Positions 6,063 through 22,204 of a DNA stretch of 25,772 bases are shown piece after piece. Within the stretch, counting starts at the first letter, position 1. Every line of letters starts with the position of its first letter. Under the pieces are notes generated by a model. That model made no database searches and had not been told where the DNA came from. It saw only the letters and a program-made list of their open reading frames with translations. The stretch is from IMG/VR virus record IMGVR_UViG_3300013138_000041, positions 1 through 25,772 of that record. One strand, given 5' to 3'. The DNA comes from a virus. Made by a program: the position numbers and the translations under genes.

Positions 6063-6335
6063 TTATTTCCTGGACGTGCGTCGGGCAGGCGTCCGCCCTG
6101 TCCGGGATGGACGCTCCGCTGCCGGGCTGACCGCCGCCTCGGCAACCGGCTCGAGGCTGGCCGTTTCAACCGCAGCAGGCTTCACCGGCGATGCCGCTTT
6201 GACCTCGCGGGCATACCCGCCGGCGACAAAGGCCTTCGCCTGCGCAGGCGAGATCTCCGTGCCCACTTCGAGCTGCTGCCCGAGCATGTATGTGCCCATC
6301 GGGCCGGCAGCGGTGGTATTCATGATGATCTTCAT
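6063..6335 (-). CDS. Small head-region protein with Ala/Pro/Arg-rich tail
   Basis: A 90-aa protein starting in an ATGA overlap with the muramidase gene. The N-terminal 45 residues (MKIIMNTTAAGPMGTYMLGQ, then EISPAQAKAFVAGGYARE) match the very common small phage protein with the pattern K-hhhh-G-x-G-hhh-G-x-hhh-hpp-A-x-xhhxxGYA seen near head-tail connector genes. The second half is low complexity, rich in Ala, Pro, Thr and finally Arg/Lys (GRTPARRTSRK). The family has no established function known to me. The basic tail could bind nucleic acid, which is inference. Confidence 0.78.
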   Translation of the reverse strand: MKIIMNTTAAGPMGTYMLGQQLEVGTEISPAQAKAFVAGGYAREVKAASPVKPAAVETASLEPVAEAAVSPAAERPSRTGRTPARRTSRK

Positions 6336-7207
6336 GATTCAATCTCCTTGGTTGGTAACAACTGGCCACAGGCCGGACAACGCGCCGGCGGTTCAGGGGT
6401 TGCAGTCCCTGACCACCAGGGGCTGTAGATCACGTTCAGGTCCACGACCTTCTTGATCGCCGGATGACCCGGTATATCCGCAGCGTTGACCCGGGCTGTG
6501 AACTGCCAGGCTGCGATCTCGGCCCCCCAGGGAGACAGCATGCGGTTGTACGGCTTGCCATCCAGCGGCACCAGGCGTCCGTCCTGGATCTTTGCTAGCA
6601 GTTCAGCCAGACGCTCGCCTGTGAAAACATAGGGCGGCAGTTTCATGTTGGCGAGCCAGTTATCGAGCGGCCACTGGGAGAGGATCAGGGGATATTTTTT
6701 CGCCCAGGCAGCTGCCGCCCCGCCGATCTGAAGCCAGAATGAGGGGTAGGTGTAGAGCATGGGATACTTCCCGGTGACCTTGCCAACCTCATACATCCAC
6801 GAGTCAAATGTCTTCAGGCAGAACTGGCCGCTCATTCCATCCTGCGTCTCGAAATCCAGGCACAGGCGATCGTCCGGCGTGCGCTCAACGGCTTCCCAGA
6901 TCTCCAGCACATCCTGGGCCTGTAGAATGGCGTTGCGGTTGCTGCGGAAGAAGTGATAGGCTACGCGCGGCCGGCCGGCAGCCGCCCGCCACTGGAGGCG
7001 GAACGCTGGATCTTCGAAAGCGCCATCCACCCACTTTCTCTCACGGTATACAAGCCCGCCTTCAGAGATCTTGATGGCTGCCACCTCAATGCCGATCTGC
7101 CTGGCGTGGTCCCAGTCGGTGGGTCGGTCGTAGATCCAGTTCTTCCCATCCGGCCGGCGGGCATCGTACAGTGAGACATCCATCATCAACGGATAAGGAG
7201 GGGTCAT
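6332..7207 (-). CDS. GH25-type muramidase (lysozyme / candidate endolysin)
   Basis: A 291-aa protein with ATG at 7207 behind GGAGATAATAA. It fits the glycoside hydrolase 25 fold: an early MDVSLYD at residues 9-15, DWDHARQIGIEVAAIKISEG at about 31-50, RVAYHFFRS near 81-89, a DxE pair in LCLDFE near residues 116-121, PMLYTYPSFW near 148-157, and AAWQFTARV near 235-243. GH25 enzymes cut the beta-1,4 bond between N-acetylmuramic acid and N-acetylglucosamine. There is no signal peptide or transmembrane segment, so release would need a holin or virion entry. The C-terminus ends with a CPACG half-knuckle (residues 278-282). Its place between head decoration genes and the connector is unusual; it might be virion-bound. 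Confidence 0.8.
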   Translation of the reverse strand: MTPPYPLMMDVSLYDARRPDGKNWIYDRPTDWDHARQIGIEVAAIKISEGGLVYRERKWVDGAFEDPAFRLQWRAAAGRPRVAYHFFRSNRNAILQAQDVLEIWEAVERTPDDRLCLDFETQDGMSGQFCLKTFDSWMYEVGKVTGKYPMLYTYPSFWLQIGGAAAAWAKKYPLILSQWPLDNWLANMKLPPYVFTGERLAELLAKIQDGRLVPLDGKPYNRMLSPWGAEIAAWQFTARVNAADIPGHPAIKKVVDLNVIYSPWWSGTATPEPPARCPACGQLLPTKEIES

Positions 7208-12256: not shown

Positions 12257-15037
12257 TTACACCTTTACCACGCCGCGATCTTCGTACACCGACCGGCCGG
12301 TCTCGCCCTGGTTGCGCAGCGCCCAGCCCAGGCCCATGATCAGGGCCACGATGCCGTCGATCTTCTCTTTCGAACGCTCCTTGTCCGGCTTGATGTTGCC
12401 AGCCGGGTCAGATCTGGCGATCAGATTGTCAGCCATCCAGGTCAGCACCGGATTGTTTCCATGCGCCAATTTGCCACCGAGCACCAGGCGCTCAAGCTCC
12501 TTCATGGCCGGACTCATGGACTGGTATCCCTGGCCGAATTCGAAGATGTCTATCGTCAGGCCGCGTTTCAACAGCATTTGCCGCAGGTATTCCGCGTTCC
12601 AGCGATCGTATGGGATCCCGAGGATCTGGAACTGCTCCAGATCCTGCTCGAGCTCGTCCAGGATCCAGTCATAGTCGATCACATTTCCCGGCGTGGCTGT
12701 CAGGTAACCCTCATCCCGCCAGATATCATAAGCCACCGCATCGTTCTCGACGCGCGCTACCAGGTTGTCTTCCGGGCACCAGAACCGGCAGACCACATAC
12801 CACGGGTCGTCATCCACCAGCGGAGGGAACACGTGTATAAGTGCGGTGAGATCCCCCTTTGATGACAGGTCAAGACCTGAGTAACAGGTATGCCCCGCCA
12901 ATACTTCGGGCAGATCCAGCGCCTGGTGCGGACCGGCGCATTTTCCCCAGGCATCCATCGGCATCCACTTGATCTCGCCCTGCACCCAGCAGTTGAGCTC
13001 CTTTTGCTTGAAGGCGTTGAGGGCACTGGGCATGCTCTTGGCGCGTTCCGCCTTGACGCGCATGTCGGACCACTTTTTACTCACGCCCAGGTTGGGGTTG
13101 GCCTTGATCCAGACTGCCTCATCGCGCCAGTCATCCTGTTCGTCGAGGGTGTAGATGATCCCGAACCAGGTGTCATCCTCAACGATCCGCTCCAGGACGC
13201 GGCGGGTGTACTCGTGTTTTTCGTAGCACACACCCTGGCGGTTCGTGCCCGCAGTGGTGATCGCCAGGATCAACGGCTGCCGCCGGCTGCCGGTGGCCGT
13301 CTCGAGCACATCCCACACGGCGCGGGTCTTGTGAGCGTGAAGTTCGTCCAGGACGGCAGCATGGATGTTTAGGCCGTCCATCGTGTCACTGTCGGCCCCC
13401 AGGGGTTCGAAGCGCTGAGCGTGATCAACCTGGTGGATATTATCCTTGTATGTCACCACCCCATTCCTGCGCAATACTGCCGACTTGCGCACCATGCGGA
13501 CCGCTTCCCCATGCACGATGCGCGCTTGATCGCGTTTGGTATTATGGGTGCGAATCATTGCTCGGCCAACCAAATATAAATGCGATGGAGCATCAACGCC
13601 AATGCAGCGAACAGGTAAGGATTTTACTGGCCTCACGTCAACGATGTAGCATCGTCGTGCCCGTGGATCATGCTTATCACGTTGTCGTTCGAATTTGCGG
13701 GATAGCTCAAAGACACGCATGGAGCGCGGCGCCTTGAAGCTCACTATATAATGCGGTTTTCCAGCGACGATGATACTGCGAAGATTTGGTAATAATCCAA
13801 GGCTGACTACCAGTTCCCATACACCATCCGCAATTAATTTATTTCTGTTGGTAAATCTGCATTCTCCTGTTTTTGTACAGGTGCCATCAGTATCCATCAA
13901 TCCCTGCAATAAAGCTAACCTTTGATTAATTGACCCACGCAAGTATTCAGCTGGAATATGCTTATTATCAAGAAGATGCGCTTTTCGTAGTAAAGTTCGG
14001 AGACCAGCTGGCGTGAAACGCAGTAATTTACGATCGCCCTGAACGAGAATTGAAAAACCATCGGCGTTTATTCGTTTTGTTATTTCCGCATCTTTTGGAT
14101 GAATGATAAGCGCGCCTCGATTCGCACGCCCGTCACCCAACCATGCACCTAGTGTATAAGGCGGAACAGGGAGATCTATATCCGGGATCTCTAAGGGACC
14201 GCCGATTTCAATTGCATGATTCGTACGATTTCCAGAACATTTGATGGTGTTGGCGATTTCCTTGGTCGTTAAGATAACTGTCCCACGCCTTTGCGCTCTT
14301 GGCCCATCCCATTCTGATTTTGGCCGCCCTTTGCGTTTCTGACCAGTGACACTGATCACAGGCCATCGATGTTCGCCATCGCATACAATGTTGGTTTTGT
14401 CATTGAATACCATTTGAAAACATGGGCGGCCGAATAGCACTGGAGAAACGTAATCAACGCATACAATATGTCCCTTTTCATCAAAGACAAGATCACCCTT
14501 TTTTACATCCCCCATTGTCGTCCATCCTGTTGGTGTCGGGATGGGGGTATCTAAAACTAAAGGCGCAGCGGTGTAGCACTCCGCACCTGGCTCCCCTCCT
14601 GGAACTTCGTCGGCAAAGGACAGATACAGCATGATTCCCGCTGCCCACGTCGATTTTCCAGACTTCCTAGCAACCTCGATGTAAGCCGTTCGGAATCGCC
14701 GCGTGCCGGCAGTATCCTCGCGCTGGCCGTTGCGTTCGACGATCCAGCGAGCATGTGGGGCACGCTTCCAGCCGAAGATCACCCAGGTGATGAACTGTTG
14801 CCAGGGTTCCAGCGCAAGCGGCTGGCCGGCCCATTCGCCCTTGGAGTGGCACAGGATGCTAAAGAAATCCAACGCGCGCTGGGCTGCCTTGCGGTCAAAA
14901 ACGAGGCCACGATCGGCGCCGTGCTTCAAGTCATCGACATGGCGCTGGCAGGCTTTACGCACCCAACGGCAGGCGACGATCCGGCCAGCGAGAACATCAC
15001 GTGCGTATCGTTCAGCAGGTGGGAGTTTGGCTGGCAT
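12257..15037 (-). CDS. Large terminase (TerL), interrupted by an intein
   Basis: A 926-aa precursor; removal of a 341-aa intein would leave 585 aa, the normal TerL size. Host protein parts: Walker A-type VARKSGKS (122-129), motif CYTAA/TKRDQAR split by the intein (154-158 and 500-506), Walker B AAVLDEL (560-566), coupling motif ILAITTAGTN (590-599), and the RNase H-like nuclease with Asp723 and Asp729 in GLDLSSKGD and a C-terminal KIDGIVALIMGLGWA. The ATPase drives DNA into the prohead and the nuclease cuts concatemers. The start is linked to terS by TGATG. The insertion point is in the conserved ATPase core, typical for inteins. Confidence 0.95.
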   Translation of the reverse strand: MPAKLPPAERYARDVLAGRIVACRWVRKACQRHVDDLKHGADRGLVFDRKAAQRALDFFSILCHSKGEWAGQPLALEPWQQFITWVIFGWKRAPHARWIVERNGQREDTAGTRRFRTAYIEVARKSGKSTWAAGIMLYLSFADEVPGGEPGAECYTAAPLVLDTPIPTPTGWTTMGDVKKGDLVFDEKGHIVCVDYVSPVLFGRPCFQMVFNDKTNIVCDGEHRWPVISVTGQKRKGRPKSEWDGPRAQRRGTVILTTKEIANTIKCSGNRTNHAIEIGGPLEIPDIDLPVPPYTLGAWLGDGRANRGALIIHPKDAEITKRINADGFSILVQGDRKLLRFTPAGLRTLLRKAHLLDNKHIPAEYLRGSINQRLALLQGLMDTDGTCTKTGECRFTNRNKLIADGVWELVVSLGLLPNLRSIIVAGKPHYIVSFKAPRSMRVFELSRKFERQRDKHDPRARRCYIVDVRPVKSLPVRCIGVDAPSHLYLVGRAMIRTHNTKRDQARIVHGEAVRMVRKSAVLRRNGVVTYKDNIHQVDHAQRFEPLGADSDTMDGLNIHAAVLDELHAHKTRAVWDVLETATGSRRQPLILAITTAGTNRQGVCYEKHEYTRRVLERIVEDDTWFGIIYTLDEQDDWRDEAVWIKANPNLGVSKKWSDMRVKAERAKSMPSALNAFKQKELNCWVQGEIKWMPMDAWGKCAGPHQALDLPEVLAGHTCYSGLDLSSKGDLTALIHVFPPLVDDDPWYVVCRFWCPEDNLVARVENDAVAYDIWRDEGYLTATPGNVIDYDWILDELEQDLEQFQILGIPYDRWNAEYLRQMLLKRGLTIDIFEFGQGYQSMSPAMKELERLVLGGKLAHGNNPVLTWMADNLIARSDPAGNIKPDKERSKEKIDGIVALIMGLGWALRNQGETGRSVYEDRGVVKV
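13541..14563 (-). other. Class 3 intein with LAGLIDADG endonuclease in TerL
   Basis: Residues 159-499 of the precursor. It begins PLVLDTPIPTPTGW (block A) without the usual Cys/Ser at position 1 and ends MIRTHN before Thr500. It has His223 and Trp225 in block B (GEHRWPV), Cys478 in block F (PVRCIGVD) and Thr497 in block G (RTHN). This Trp/Cys/Thr set is the hallmark of class 3 inteins, which use the block F Cys as first nucleophile. Two dodecapeptide motifs, LGAWLGDG (296-303) and LLQGLMDTDG (376-385), mark a homing endonuclease. The DNA is visibly more AT-rich than the flanking terminase parts, in keeping with horizontal insertion. Confidence 0.93.
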
Positions 15038-15534
15038 CAGGTTTTCTTGACCTTTACCCCTGGTCCGAACAGCTCAGCCTCCAGGTTCTTCTTGGCCTTC
15101 TCGTCGGGCGGATCCGCATGCACCTTGGATCGGCTGGCCGGTGTCAGGCCAAACTCGGCAGCCAGGGAATTCAACTGCTCGTTGGCTTTATTGGCAACTG
15201 CCAGGTGTGGGTTCTGCACCAGGTTGCCATTCCTGGTTGTGATCACCGGTCCGCCAGTTTTCTCGATTTTCTCCTCGGCCTCCAGCCAGCGCTGGTAGAT
15301 CTGGCAGTAGCGCGCCAGGGCATCCAGATCGATCGTGGTGAGCACACCCAGCATGAGCAGCTGGGCCGTGATCTTTTTCCAGTGCTCGCGCGCAGCACCA
15401 TGCAAGTGGTCCGGGCACGCCGGCGCATGCGAGAGCTTGGGCGGCTTGGGTTCGCTCTTGTTCAGTGCGCGCTTGCCCGGGTTGCCCTCCAGCTCTTTGA
15501 TCGCCGTGGGCTTGGGCCTCCGTCCCTGGGTCAT
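15037..15534 (-). CDS. Small terminase (TerS), P27 family
   Basis: A 165-aa protein with ATG at 15534 after a G-rich ribosome site (GGGTGGA). The start MTQGRRPKPTAIKELEGNPGKR is the signature of the P27-type small terminase, followed by HLHGAAREHWKKITAQLLMLG and LTTIDLDALARYCQIYQRW (near 66-84), and PVITTRNGNLVQNPHLAVANKA. TerS recognises the packaging site on phage DNA and regulates the large subunit. Its stop overlaps the TerL start by one base. The 27-bp repeats directly upstream are candidates for its binding site. Confidence 0.94.
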   Translation of the reverse strand: MTQGRRPKPTAIKELEGNPGKRALNKSEPKPPKLSHAPACPDHLHGAAREHWKKITAQLLMLGVLTTIDLDALARYCQIYQRWLEAEEKIEKTGGPVITTRNGNLVQNPHLAVANKANEQLNSLAAEFGLTPASRSKVHADPPDEKAKKNLEAELFGPGVKVKKT

Positions 15535-17002: not shown

Positions 17003-17037
17003 TGATGGTCCTTTTGGCTATATGTTTCACGGAGACT

Positions 17038-17067
17038 CACACACACACACTCACACACACACACACA
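17038..17067. repeat. (CA)n microsatellite
   Basis: Thirty bases of CA repeat with one interrupting T at 17051, in the 100-base non-coding gap between two genes, just upstream of the HTH gene on the transcribed strand (TG)n. Confidence 0.95.
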
Positions 17068-17076
17068 TACATTAAT

Positions 17077-18321: not shown

Positions 18322-18632
18322 TCAGGCGCGCCGATGATCACGGCGATCGCCACATCCTCAGCCAGGATCGGCACGCCTTTCTCGCGGATGTCTGCCCTGA
18401 CTTCCTCGATCGGGATCCAGAAGTGGCCGGCGATGTCTTTTGCCAGGCGTGTGATCTCATCCGATGTGAGCGCGGCAAGATCCAAAAAGTAAACCTTGGT
18501 GTCCCCGATGCCATCCACAGAGACGACCGTTGCGTTCGCACTTTTGATCGGCACATTGTCCAGGCGATTGAAGACCTGCTGCCAGCGCTCTGCACGCGGG
18601 CTGGCGGGGTTGATCGAGGCGATCACGGTCAT
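18318..18632 (-). CDS. Hypothetical protein downstream of ParB-like gene
   Basis: A 104-aa protein with its ATG in an ATGA overlap with the ParB-like gene stop. Begins MTVIASINPASPRAERWQQV; contains VVSVDGIGDTKVYFLDLAAL and LAKDIAGHFWIPIEEVRADI, and ends GVPILAEDVAIAVIIGAPE. It looks like a small alpha/beta domain. Translational coupling to the ParB-like protein suggests a partner of it, which is inference. Confidence 0.72.
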   Translation of the reverse strand: MTVIASINPASPRAERWQQVFNRLDNVPIKSANATVVSVDGIGDTKVYFLDLAALTSDEITRLAKDIAGHFWIPIEEVRADIREKGVPILAEDVAIAVIIGAPE

Positions 18633-20473
18633 TCGTCCTCGCCTTCTTCGTCCATATCACCAGGGACCTCATCCTCGCCCATATCGTCTTCCTCGTCCTC
18701 GTCTTCTTCCCCGCTCTCGACGACAGGCGCTGCGGCAGACGCTTCAGAAAAGGCCTTGGCCTTCTCCAGCCAGTCCTCTGGCAGGGTCACTTCCCATTCC
18801 TTTGCCACGCCCTGCAGATGCTCCGCCACAGCCAGGGGACCTTTGGACCTTAGTTCCCACTCGACAACGTAGGACAGGAACCAATCCGCGAGTTCCATGC
18901 GTACCAGGCGGAAAAACTCCTTGGGGTCAACCGGCTGTCCATCCTTGTTGCGTTCGCATTCGATATCATCGGGATCCGAGACAACTTTTAGAAGGGTAAG
19001 AATGAATTGGTCGGGCAAAGGATCAAAAAGATGGCAAAAGGCAGGTAAGGAAACGTCGCTGAGATACTGCTGGCTAAAATGCCTGTTCTTCTCCGCGAGT
19101 TCCCGCTTCGCCTGGGCTTCGTCGTAGCGAGCGCTTGACTGCTCGCGCTCTTCCTGTTGGTGCTTTTCCTTATCCTTCGCCGCCTGGATGTTCTCGGGCG
19201 TGACGTCCACCAGGTAGACCAGCGGGGAGTTGGTGTACTCGTACCTACCCCATCCCTTTGGCTTGCCAGGCATCAGGCGCAGGCCGGGGATACGTTCCTC
19301 CCAGGCTTTATCGGAGGTCTCTGGATGTTGGTAAGACTCCATGTATTTCAACATCTCTTCGCCGTCCGCGGCCGGGTCGTAGATCGGGATATTCAACTTC
19401 TTGCTGAGTTCCACCGCCTTGATCATCGACCAGGCCTGTCTCTTGCGCTCAAGGCAGGCATTCCAGCAGCACAAGTGGTTGTCGCCGCCGCGCACGTAAT
19501 ATTGACAGCGCGTGCAAGCCGGTGGGTGCGTCAGGTGCGCCAGTTTCTCGATCGTCTCAACCGGAGCGCCCTGGTCGATCAGCGCCTGGGCGGCGACCAG
19601 CCCGCTCTCCAGGTTGTCGATCCAGCCCTTGAGTTCCTTCTTGCGCTTGCCGCCTTCCGTCCCAACCGCCCCGGCTTCCTGGGCGGCCTCCTGGGTCAGT
19701 TTGGGCATGGCGGGGAATTCGTCGAAGTCGAGTTTCCAGAGATGATCCCCGGCGGTCGGCGGATCCCGGTGGTTGTATTTGCTCTGCAGGTACTCCACGT
19801 TCGGAGAATTGGCCAACTTGGCGACCAGCACCTCCGCCGGAGCCTTCCCCTGCTGGATGGCCTTGGTGGCGTCTTCGACCTTTCCGGGGGCGATGCGCTG
19901 CAGGGTCAGCAGACTCCTGGCTGCCCCGATGTTGATCTCGCCGGCGGCCAGTTGCACCTGGGCCGTCTCCGGCAGCCCCAGCAGGCGGATGGTGCCGCGC
20001 ACGGTGCTTTCGTCGACGTTGAAGAATTCCCCGGTCTCGGCCGAGGTCTTGTGGAACTTGTCCATGTAGGTCTGCATGGCCTTGGCGCGCTCGATCGGGT
20101 TCAGGTCCCGGCGCTTGATGTTCTCGGCCACGGCGATCTCGAACATCTGCAGGTCATCCAGGGGACGGATGAAGCAGGGCATCAGTTTGTACTTGTGGTC
20201 ACTCTTTGCCAGCAGGCGGTAGGCTGCCAGGCGCGTGTGGCCGAAGGCCAACTGGTAGCCAAGGCCTTCCTCCTGGATCGCCTTGGGGACCGCACCACCC
20301 AACAGGGCAATGCCCAGGTCTTGAAATTCACGCACGGTGGGGGGCTGCAGCAGTTTATTGCGTTGGATGTTCTCGGCCAGTTCCGCCACCACGGCGGGAT
20401 CCTCCGCCTGGCGTACCTGGAACGGGTTGGGGACGATCAGGTCGATCTCGATCATTTCGGGGGCTTCGTTCAT
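18629..20473 (-). CDS. ParB-like protein with Cys cluster and acidic tail
   Basis: A 614-aa protein starting MNEAPEMIEIDLIVPNPFQV. The N-terminal ParB/sulfiredoxin-type domain (about 8-125) has QLAFGHTRLAAYRLL (GHTR at 78-81) and AVAENIKRRDLNPIERAKAM (114-133), then an HTH-like region TSAETGEFFNVDESTVRGTI (143-162), as in ParB, Spo0J and KorB. Distal to this are a cysteine cluster (C320, C323, C335, C336, C340) and a charged linker with EKHQQEEREQSS. The last 30 residues are almost all Glu/Asp. Canonical ParB is about 300 aa and has a ParA partner; no ParA is seen in the window. Phage ParB-like proteins can be nucleases, CTP switches or regulators; the exact role is open. Confidence 0.85.
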   Translation of the reverse strand: MNEAPEMIEIDLIVPNPFQVRQAEDPAVVAELAENIQRNKLLQPPTVREFQDLGIALLGGAVPKAIQEEGLGYQLAFGHTRLAAYRLLAKSDHKYKLMPCFIRPLDDLQMFEIAVAENIKRRDLNPIERAKAMQTYMDKFHKTSAETGEFFNVDESTVRGTIRLLGLPETAQVQLAAGEINIGAARSLLTLQRIAPGKVEDATKAIQQGKAPAEVLVAKLANSPNVEYLQSKYNHRDPPTAGDHLWKLDFDEFPAMPKLTQEAAQEAGAVGTEGGKRKKELKGWIDNLESGLVAAQALIDQGAPVETIEKLAHLTHPPACTRCQYYVRGGDNHLCCWNACLERKRQAWSMIKAVELSKKLNIPIYDPAADGEEMLKYMESYQHPETSDKAWEERIPGLRLMPGKPKGWGRYEYTNSPLVYLVDVTPENIQAAKDKEKHQQEEREQSSARYDEAQAKRELAEKNRHFSQQYLSDVSLPAFCHLFDPLPDQFILTLLKVVSDPDDIECERNKDGQPVDPKEFFRLVRMELADWFLSYVVEWELRSKGPLAVAEHLQGVAKEWEVTLPEDWLEKAKAFSEASAAAPVVESGEEDEDEEDDMGEDEVPGDMDEEGEDE

Positions 20474-21311: not shown

Positions 21312-22070
21312 TTACACAAACAGCGGTTCTTGTAATTGGGCTTGCTCGATACGTTTCTTCGCGATCTCAAAATACTTAGGCTCCAGCTCGCAGCCGATGA
21401 AGTTCCGTCCGAGCTGGACGCAGGCTACTCCGGTAGTGCCTGATCCCATGAAGGGGTCAAAGATGGTGTCGCCAGGAAGACTGTGTAGTTTGATAAAATG
21501 CGCAGCCAAAGAAACAGGCTTTTGTGTGGGATGTTCATCAGCAATTGGAATAATTTTGTGAATTCCTTTTCCTGGGCGAATAATATTCTCAATTTTTTTT
21601 GACGTGTCATACCATTTGCAAGATGCCCCTCTTTTTTGCGCTACTAATATGGTTTCATAAGAACGGCGATAATGCCAACCCATCCCCATAGGCCCCTTAT
21701 CCCATACCACCATTTGTTTGAAGTCAAAAACTTCATTCATCCATAAAGACCAACGGGCAAACTGCGGGTCCGGTCCACCACCATCACCACAACAACAACA
21801 ACAACCACCCGGAAATAAAATTCTATTTAGTTCCGGTAAAACATTCTTGAATAGTTCGTTAGCTTCTTCGCCATCGTTAGCGATTGGTCTGTTTTTTTCG
21901 GGAGTATATTCGCCTTTTCCAAGAGCGGCCTCCCGTCTTGAAATAAGATCGCCATTATTATTATTATGCCCATAGGGTGGATCGGTAAAAATCATATCTA
22001 TGCTTTTATCCGGCATGGACTTCATGTATTCCAGGCAATCGCCAAGATACAATTCTACTTTAGATGGCAT
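21312..22070 (-). CDS. DNA methyltransferase, beta class (N6-adenine or N4-cytosine)
   Basis: A 252-aa protein; the ATG at 22070 follows AAGGAAAT. The catalytic TDPPYG motif is at 29-34 and the AdoMet-binding DPFMGSGTTGVA motif at 205-216, with a HPTQKPVSL motif (about 180-188) between: the order IV then I defines the beta class. It transfers a methyl group from S-adenosylmethionine to an exocyclic amino group of adenine or cytosine, probably to protect phage DNA from restriction. The protein carries HNNNN after the catalytic motif and a GGCCCCC/GGG stretch near 90-100, encoded by AAT and TTG-like triplet runs. No cognate endonuclease is adjacent. The gene is AT-richer than its neighbours. 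Confidence 0.93.
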   Translation of the reverse strand: MPSKVELYLGDCLEYMKSMPDKSIDMIFTDPPYGHNNNNGDLISRREAALGKGEYTPEKNRPIANDGEEANELFKNVLPELNRILFPGGCCCCCGDGGGPDPQFARWSLWMNEVFDFKQMVVWDKGPMGMGWHYRRSYETILVAQKRGASCKWYDTSKKIENIIRPGKGIHKIIPIADEHPTQKPVSLAAHFIKLHSLPGDTIFDPFMGSGTTGVACVQLGRNFIGCELEPKYFEIAKKRIEQAQLQEPLFV

Positions 22071-22204
22071 ATTTCCTTTTCCTTCGCCGGCCTGCACATC
22101 GTACATAGTCCGTTATGGTTATGGTGCCGGCAAATTGGCGCGCCGCACTTGGAGCAGTACCGAACGCGCCTTTTTCCGCACCGCGCCACGGTGGTGCACT
22201 TCAC
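22055..22204 (-). CDS. 49-aa zinc-finger protein, GTG start
   Basis: The GTG at 22204 overlaps the previous stop as GTGA, and the end overlaps the methyltransferase start by 16 bases. The peptide starts VKCTTVARCGKRRVRYCSKC and goes on GAPICRHHNHNGLCTMCRPAK: eight cysteines and several histidines, a likely two-zinc knuckle. Basic residues suggest nucleic-acid contact. A longer upstream-starting frame would overlap the previous gene and has no ribosome site. Confidence 0.72.
   Translation of the reverse strand: MKCTTVARCGKRRVRYCSKCGAPICRHHNHNGLCTMCRPAKEKEICHLK

Follow-up and report, generated by a model that had tools for sequence, protein, structure and literature searches.

The window, by which we mean the whole stretch of DNA analyzed here, is 25,772 bases long and covers all of its virus record. 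It carries a 926-aa open reading frame (ORF) that, in a Pfam search, matched the nuclease domain (PF20441, E = 9e-53) and the ATPase domain (PF03354, E = 2.1e-22) of the terminase large subunit (TerL) and that also matched phrog_9 (E = 4.1e-173). The gene for the terminase small subunit (TerS) lies directly upstream, portal, protease, and capsid genes lie downstream, and this neighborhood is the standard packaging and head module of a tailed phage. Assignment of the ORF to TerL is supported by the TerS-TerL-portal order and by the ATPase and nuclease domains, which flank an insert of 341 residues: a Walker A-like sequence, ARKSGKST (Lys128), is located in the N-extein, and VLDEL, in the Walker B region, lies together with the nuclease domain in the C-extein. 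The positions of these features are given in Table 1.

Elsewhere in the window, the minus strand encodes a glycosyl hydrolase family 25 endolysin (6332-7207), placed between the capsid and tail genes within the structural module; a protein with the N-terminal and HTH domains of ParB (18629-20473), which at 614 aa is long for a phage ParB-like protein; and an N6/N4 DNA methyltransferase (21312-22106; PF01555, E = 2e-36). A short CA dinucleotide tract of ~17 copies is found at 17035-17071.

TABLE 1 Features of the terL locus and of the putative intein within it
Feature	Position	Strand	Basis or remark
TerL precursor ORF, 926 aa, interrupted by the intein	12257..15037	-	PF20441, PF03354, phrog_9
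Terminase small subunit	15037..15534	-	phrog_83, E = 3.9e-49
N-extein, TerL residues 1-158, ending ...ECYTAA	14564..15037	-	
Class 3 intein (by signature) with LAGLIDADG homing endonuclease, 341 aa, precursor residues 159-499	13541..14563	-	
C-extein, TerL residues 500-926, starting TKRDQAR	12257..13540	-	
Pro1, where a Cys/Ser/Thr nucleophile would stand	14561..14563	-	
Block B His65-Arg-Trp67, supplying the base (His65) and the WCT Trp (B:12)	14363..14371	-	Roles as in PMC7664689
Core of the LAGLIDADG homing endonuclease (residues 131-293 of the intein)	13685..14173	-	PF14528; aligned to PI-SceI 207-383
Asp144, first LAGLIDADG motif (LGAWLGDG)	14132..14134	-	Profile alignment; pairs with PI-SceI Asp218
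Lys201 (NKHIP)	13961..13963	-	Profile alignment; pairs with PI-SceI Lys301
Asp226, second LAGLIDADG motif (LLQGLMDTDG)	13886..13888	-	Profile alignment; pairs with PI-SceI Asp326
Cys320 (block F:4), predicted initiating nucleophile	13604..13606	-	
Thr339 (WCT Thr, G:5), next-to-last His340, and last residue Asn341	13541..13549	-	
First C-extein residue (Thr+1), predicted to act as second nucleophile	13538..13540	-	

A scan of viral contigs yielded 49 relatives. In at least 20 of them, the TerL has no intein and aligns with the window protein through ...AA/TKRDQAR (the slash marks the junction), with no gap at that point, so the boundaries of the insert could be set independently of intein motifs. 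This alignment places the junction exactly where the original prediction had put it, and the coordinates and length of the insert, together with the 585 aa of extein that remain without it, were likewise exact. The three nearest intein-free TerLs are 79, 76, and 74% identical to the window TerL over the whole extein. Base composition sets the insert apart from its flanks, with a GC content of 45.9% versus 59.7 and 61.4% and a GC3 of 0.38 versus 0.66 and 0.77. An NCBIfam search gave no match.

Splicing class and signature residues

The definition of class 3 inteins, including their requirement for Cys(F:4), is taken from earlier work (PMC5222942, PMC3196547). Position 1 of the insert, as set by the intein-free relatives, is not Cys, Ser, or Thr. 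Because a Pro stands there, the first step of class 1 splicing is ruled out, and a class 1 assignment was dropped. The +1 residue, where class 3 inteins have Ser or Thr, is a Thr, and Trp67, Cys320, and Thr339 pair with Trp67, Cys124, and Thr143 of MchDnaB1. In the structure of that intein, Cys124 joins His65 and Thr143 in a protease-like triad, and Trp67 completes the WCT set (PMC7664689). The best matches of a phmmer search against the PDB were the class 3 DnaB inteins 6rix/6riy and 6bs8 (top E = 8.6e-27), with which His65, Trp67, and the Cys, Thr, His, and Asn residues of the insert align one to one. An AlphaFold2 model was built from 37 aligned inteins, among which His65 and Trp67 are invariant, and reached a mean pLDDT of 93.1; its splicing domain was matched by Foldseek to 6bs8/6rix with target TM scores of 0.83 to 0.89. 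The nearest relatives are class 3 inteins as judged by PDB matches, by fold, and by a tree containing no class 1 inteins. Signature residues, PDB matches, relatives, and fold agree with the class originally proposed, and every residue number in that proposal (Pro159, which is Pro1, Trp225, Cys478, Thr497, Asn499, and Thr500) was right. Its signature makes the insert a class 3 intein, with splicing itself predicted.

A position 1 that is not a nucleophile would also suit a class 2-type intein, in which Thr+1 attacks the N-terminal junction directly and no internal Cys takes part. We regard this as extremely improbable, given the complete WCT set and the membership of the closest relatives in class 3; moreover, class 2 has been reported only in KlbA (PMC3196547).

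The same residues recur in 180 related inteins taken from phage, viral, and bacterial contigs by seed-pattern scans, the counts from which are not exhaustive. A last-residue Asn and a block F Cys were found in all 180, and Thr(G:5), the H.W motif, and Ser/Thr+1 were each found in 179. Pro1 is indeed present in the window, but it is not unusual, since 23 of the 180 share it. Among the inteins L051 to L232, residue 1 tracks the insertion site: Ala1 follows Lys(-1), mostly in the P-loop, in 119 of 121 cases, and Pro1 follows a residue other than Lys in 21 of 23. This correlation may reflect lineage or local constraint. In one class 3-type intein, on a Bacteroidetes MAG contig (L171), the block B Trp position is a stop codon (ADADHQ*Q), possibly the mark of a pseudogene or of a sequencing error.

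Non-splicing class 3 pseudogenes are known (PMC3196547), and a decayed intein of the kind seen in Arthrobacter Arth_1007 would leave the terL gene of the window dead; the contig could be a defective prophage. We consider decay very unlikely, since the 926-aa frame is open, the exteins align over their full length with functional-looking relatives, and all splicing residues are kept, including Cys(F:4), which is missing in Arth_1007. Also counted against a decayed intein was that a tailed phage cannot do without TerL.

Endonuclease, insertion site, and spread

In the middle of the 926-aa ORF, a LAGLIDADG_3 domain (PF14528) scored above the Pfam cut-off, and Foldseek matched the AlphaFold2 model to PI-SceI end to end (E = 1.9e-18). 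As expected of a LAGLIDADG (DOD) enzyme, there are two motifs, and both catalytic-acid positions are filled. Because Asp144, Lys201, and Asp226 align with PI-SceI Asp218, Lys301, and Asp326, the catalytic residues of that enzyme, the endonuclease looks intact, in line with what had been concluded from the two motifs.

The original prediction also called for a search for intein-free terL alleles with a matching endonuclease site. Intein-free alleles were found, the closest (L002) at 79% identity, but the nearest three differ from the window at 7 to 13 of 40 nt around the site and are thus candidate targets at most. That the target DNA of known intein-free relatives is not identical to the window is compatible with an intein that splices, carries an endonuclease that no longer cuts, and is inherited vertically. 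This combination appears unlikely, given that the counterparts of the PI-SceI catalytic residues are all retained and that a scattered distribution and a mismatch between intein and extein identity, described below, suggest movement.

A scan of genome contigs with the window intein alone as the query detected no relative, whereas a profile of same-site inteins did. Nine inteins, including that of the window, occupy exactly the same TerL position. Seven of the others come from IMG/VR (L051 to L055, L073, and L074), and one (L165) lies on a Desulfovirgula thermocuniculi contig. The seven complete same-site inteins share one alignment column, and in a tree of 140 related inteins, none of them class 1, the nine group as a single clade (SH-aLRT 99) that excludes both the P-loop inteins and those inserted at neighboring sites in mycobacteriophage TerLs. 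Both distribution and clade membership derive from seed-pattern scans and are not exhaustive. Stenotrophomonas phage SOVA965, a same-site candidate by tblastn coverage, was rejected, as its intein is actually in the P-loop.

On the TerL host tree, intein-bearing TerLs are scattered among intein-free ones; the well-supported branches require at least five changes of state, and the window TerL is sister to that of the intein-free L002. Compared with L051 and L052, the window intein is 55 and 53% identical, respectively, versus 38 and 39% for the exteins. A site-specific mobile intein would be expected to give such a pattern of scattered hosts and a single intein clade. The lower GC of the intein had been read as a sign of recent acquisition; together with GC3, the tree, and the identity mismatch, it supports likely horizontal acquisition.

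The window site does not share an alignment column with mycobacteriophage TerL1 site c or d. Site c, represented by Petp2012 (genus Fromanvirus), is several residues downstream, and LittleE, a probable representative of site d by inference, aligns ambiguously and is also a few residues off. The window insertion point thus seems to differ from the mycobacteriophage TerL sites published so far. We think it probable that AA/TKRDQA is a separate TerL site outside mycobacteriophage sites a to e, colonized once by a class 3 intein that then spread horizontally across very different TerLs and bacterial hosts.

Taken as a whole, the evidence makes it highly likely that the ATPase domain of this phage TerL harbors a full-length class 3 intein, predicted to splice out to leave a 585-aa TerL and to home by means of its LAGLIDADG endonuclease. 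The intein, which follows the Walker A region and precedes the Walker B region, would be translated within the 926-aa precursor. Once the Hint domain had folded, Cys320, helped by His65 and Thr339, would attack the Ala(-1)-Pro1 bond, giving a block F branched intermediate, and the N-extein would then be transferred to Thr+1. Cyclization of Asn341 would free the intein, with the exteins rejoined as TerL. During co-infection, the endonuclease could cut an intein-free terL at the same codons, and repair would copy the intein in.

Comparison with known inteins

Class 3 inteins in phage TerL were already described in 2016, with splicing and cutting demonstrated. In mycobacteriophages, TerL is the commonest intein host, with five TerL1 sites, and the TerL1-c, -d, and -e inteins were counted among class 3 (Kelley et al. 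2016, PMC5050341). Splicing was seen for five TerL or terminase-like inteins of these phages, including TerL1-c and -e, and the TerL1-b and -c inteins cut intein-free alleles (PMC5050341). The terminase host had originally been set against Bethlehem-type DnaB inteins. This contrast does not hold, because the founding class 3 intein (MP-Be "DnaB") is very probably the TerL intein of Bethlehem gp10, which occupies TerL1 site c (Kelley et al. 2016, PMC5050341): for the TerL1 intein, Table 1 of that article refers to Tori et al. 2010 (its reference 36), on the "mycobacteriophage Bethlehem DnaB intein." Two Bethlehem inteins were studied there, in gp10 TerL and gp51 RDF, and the latter is class 1 (PMC5050341).

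No mechanism is altered by our finding. What seems modestly new, from the alignments and the tree, is the precise point of insertion, which precedes site c and probably site d by a few residues, and an intein lineage of its own. For the view of phages as a reservoir of class 3 inteins, the window provides a clean, exactly delimited case, and its close intein-free alleles are suitable partners for a homing test. The nine same-site inteins represent a single lineage that has kept to one conserved protein motif in phages distant from each other.

A close counterpart in a described system is TerL1-c, which in Bethlehem gp10 splices and cuts DNA (PMC5050341). Like the window intein, that of Petp2012 gp13 (L058) has 341 aa, the class 3 WCT set, Pro1, a THN/T junction, and two LAGLIDADG motifs and is sited in the TerL ATPase domain; however, it is only 34% identical, lies a few residues downstream (SQDQ/TKN) in a divergent TerL, and falls on a different part of the intein tree. 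The eight other same-site inteins share the A/TK.[DE]QA junction, WCT, and a GLMDTDG...GECR block with the window, at 42 to 55% intein identity, while their TerL hosts are only 35 to 61% identical. MchDnaB1 of Mycobacterium chimaera (6rix/6riy) and MsmDnaB1 of M. smegmatis (6bs8) resemble the window intein in splicing domain and active-site residues but are mini-inteins without an endonuclease, in DnaB, with Ser+1. PI-SceI, the VMA1 intein, has the same two-domain architecture and LAGLIDADG residues but is a class 1 intein with Cys1 in a yeast ATPase.
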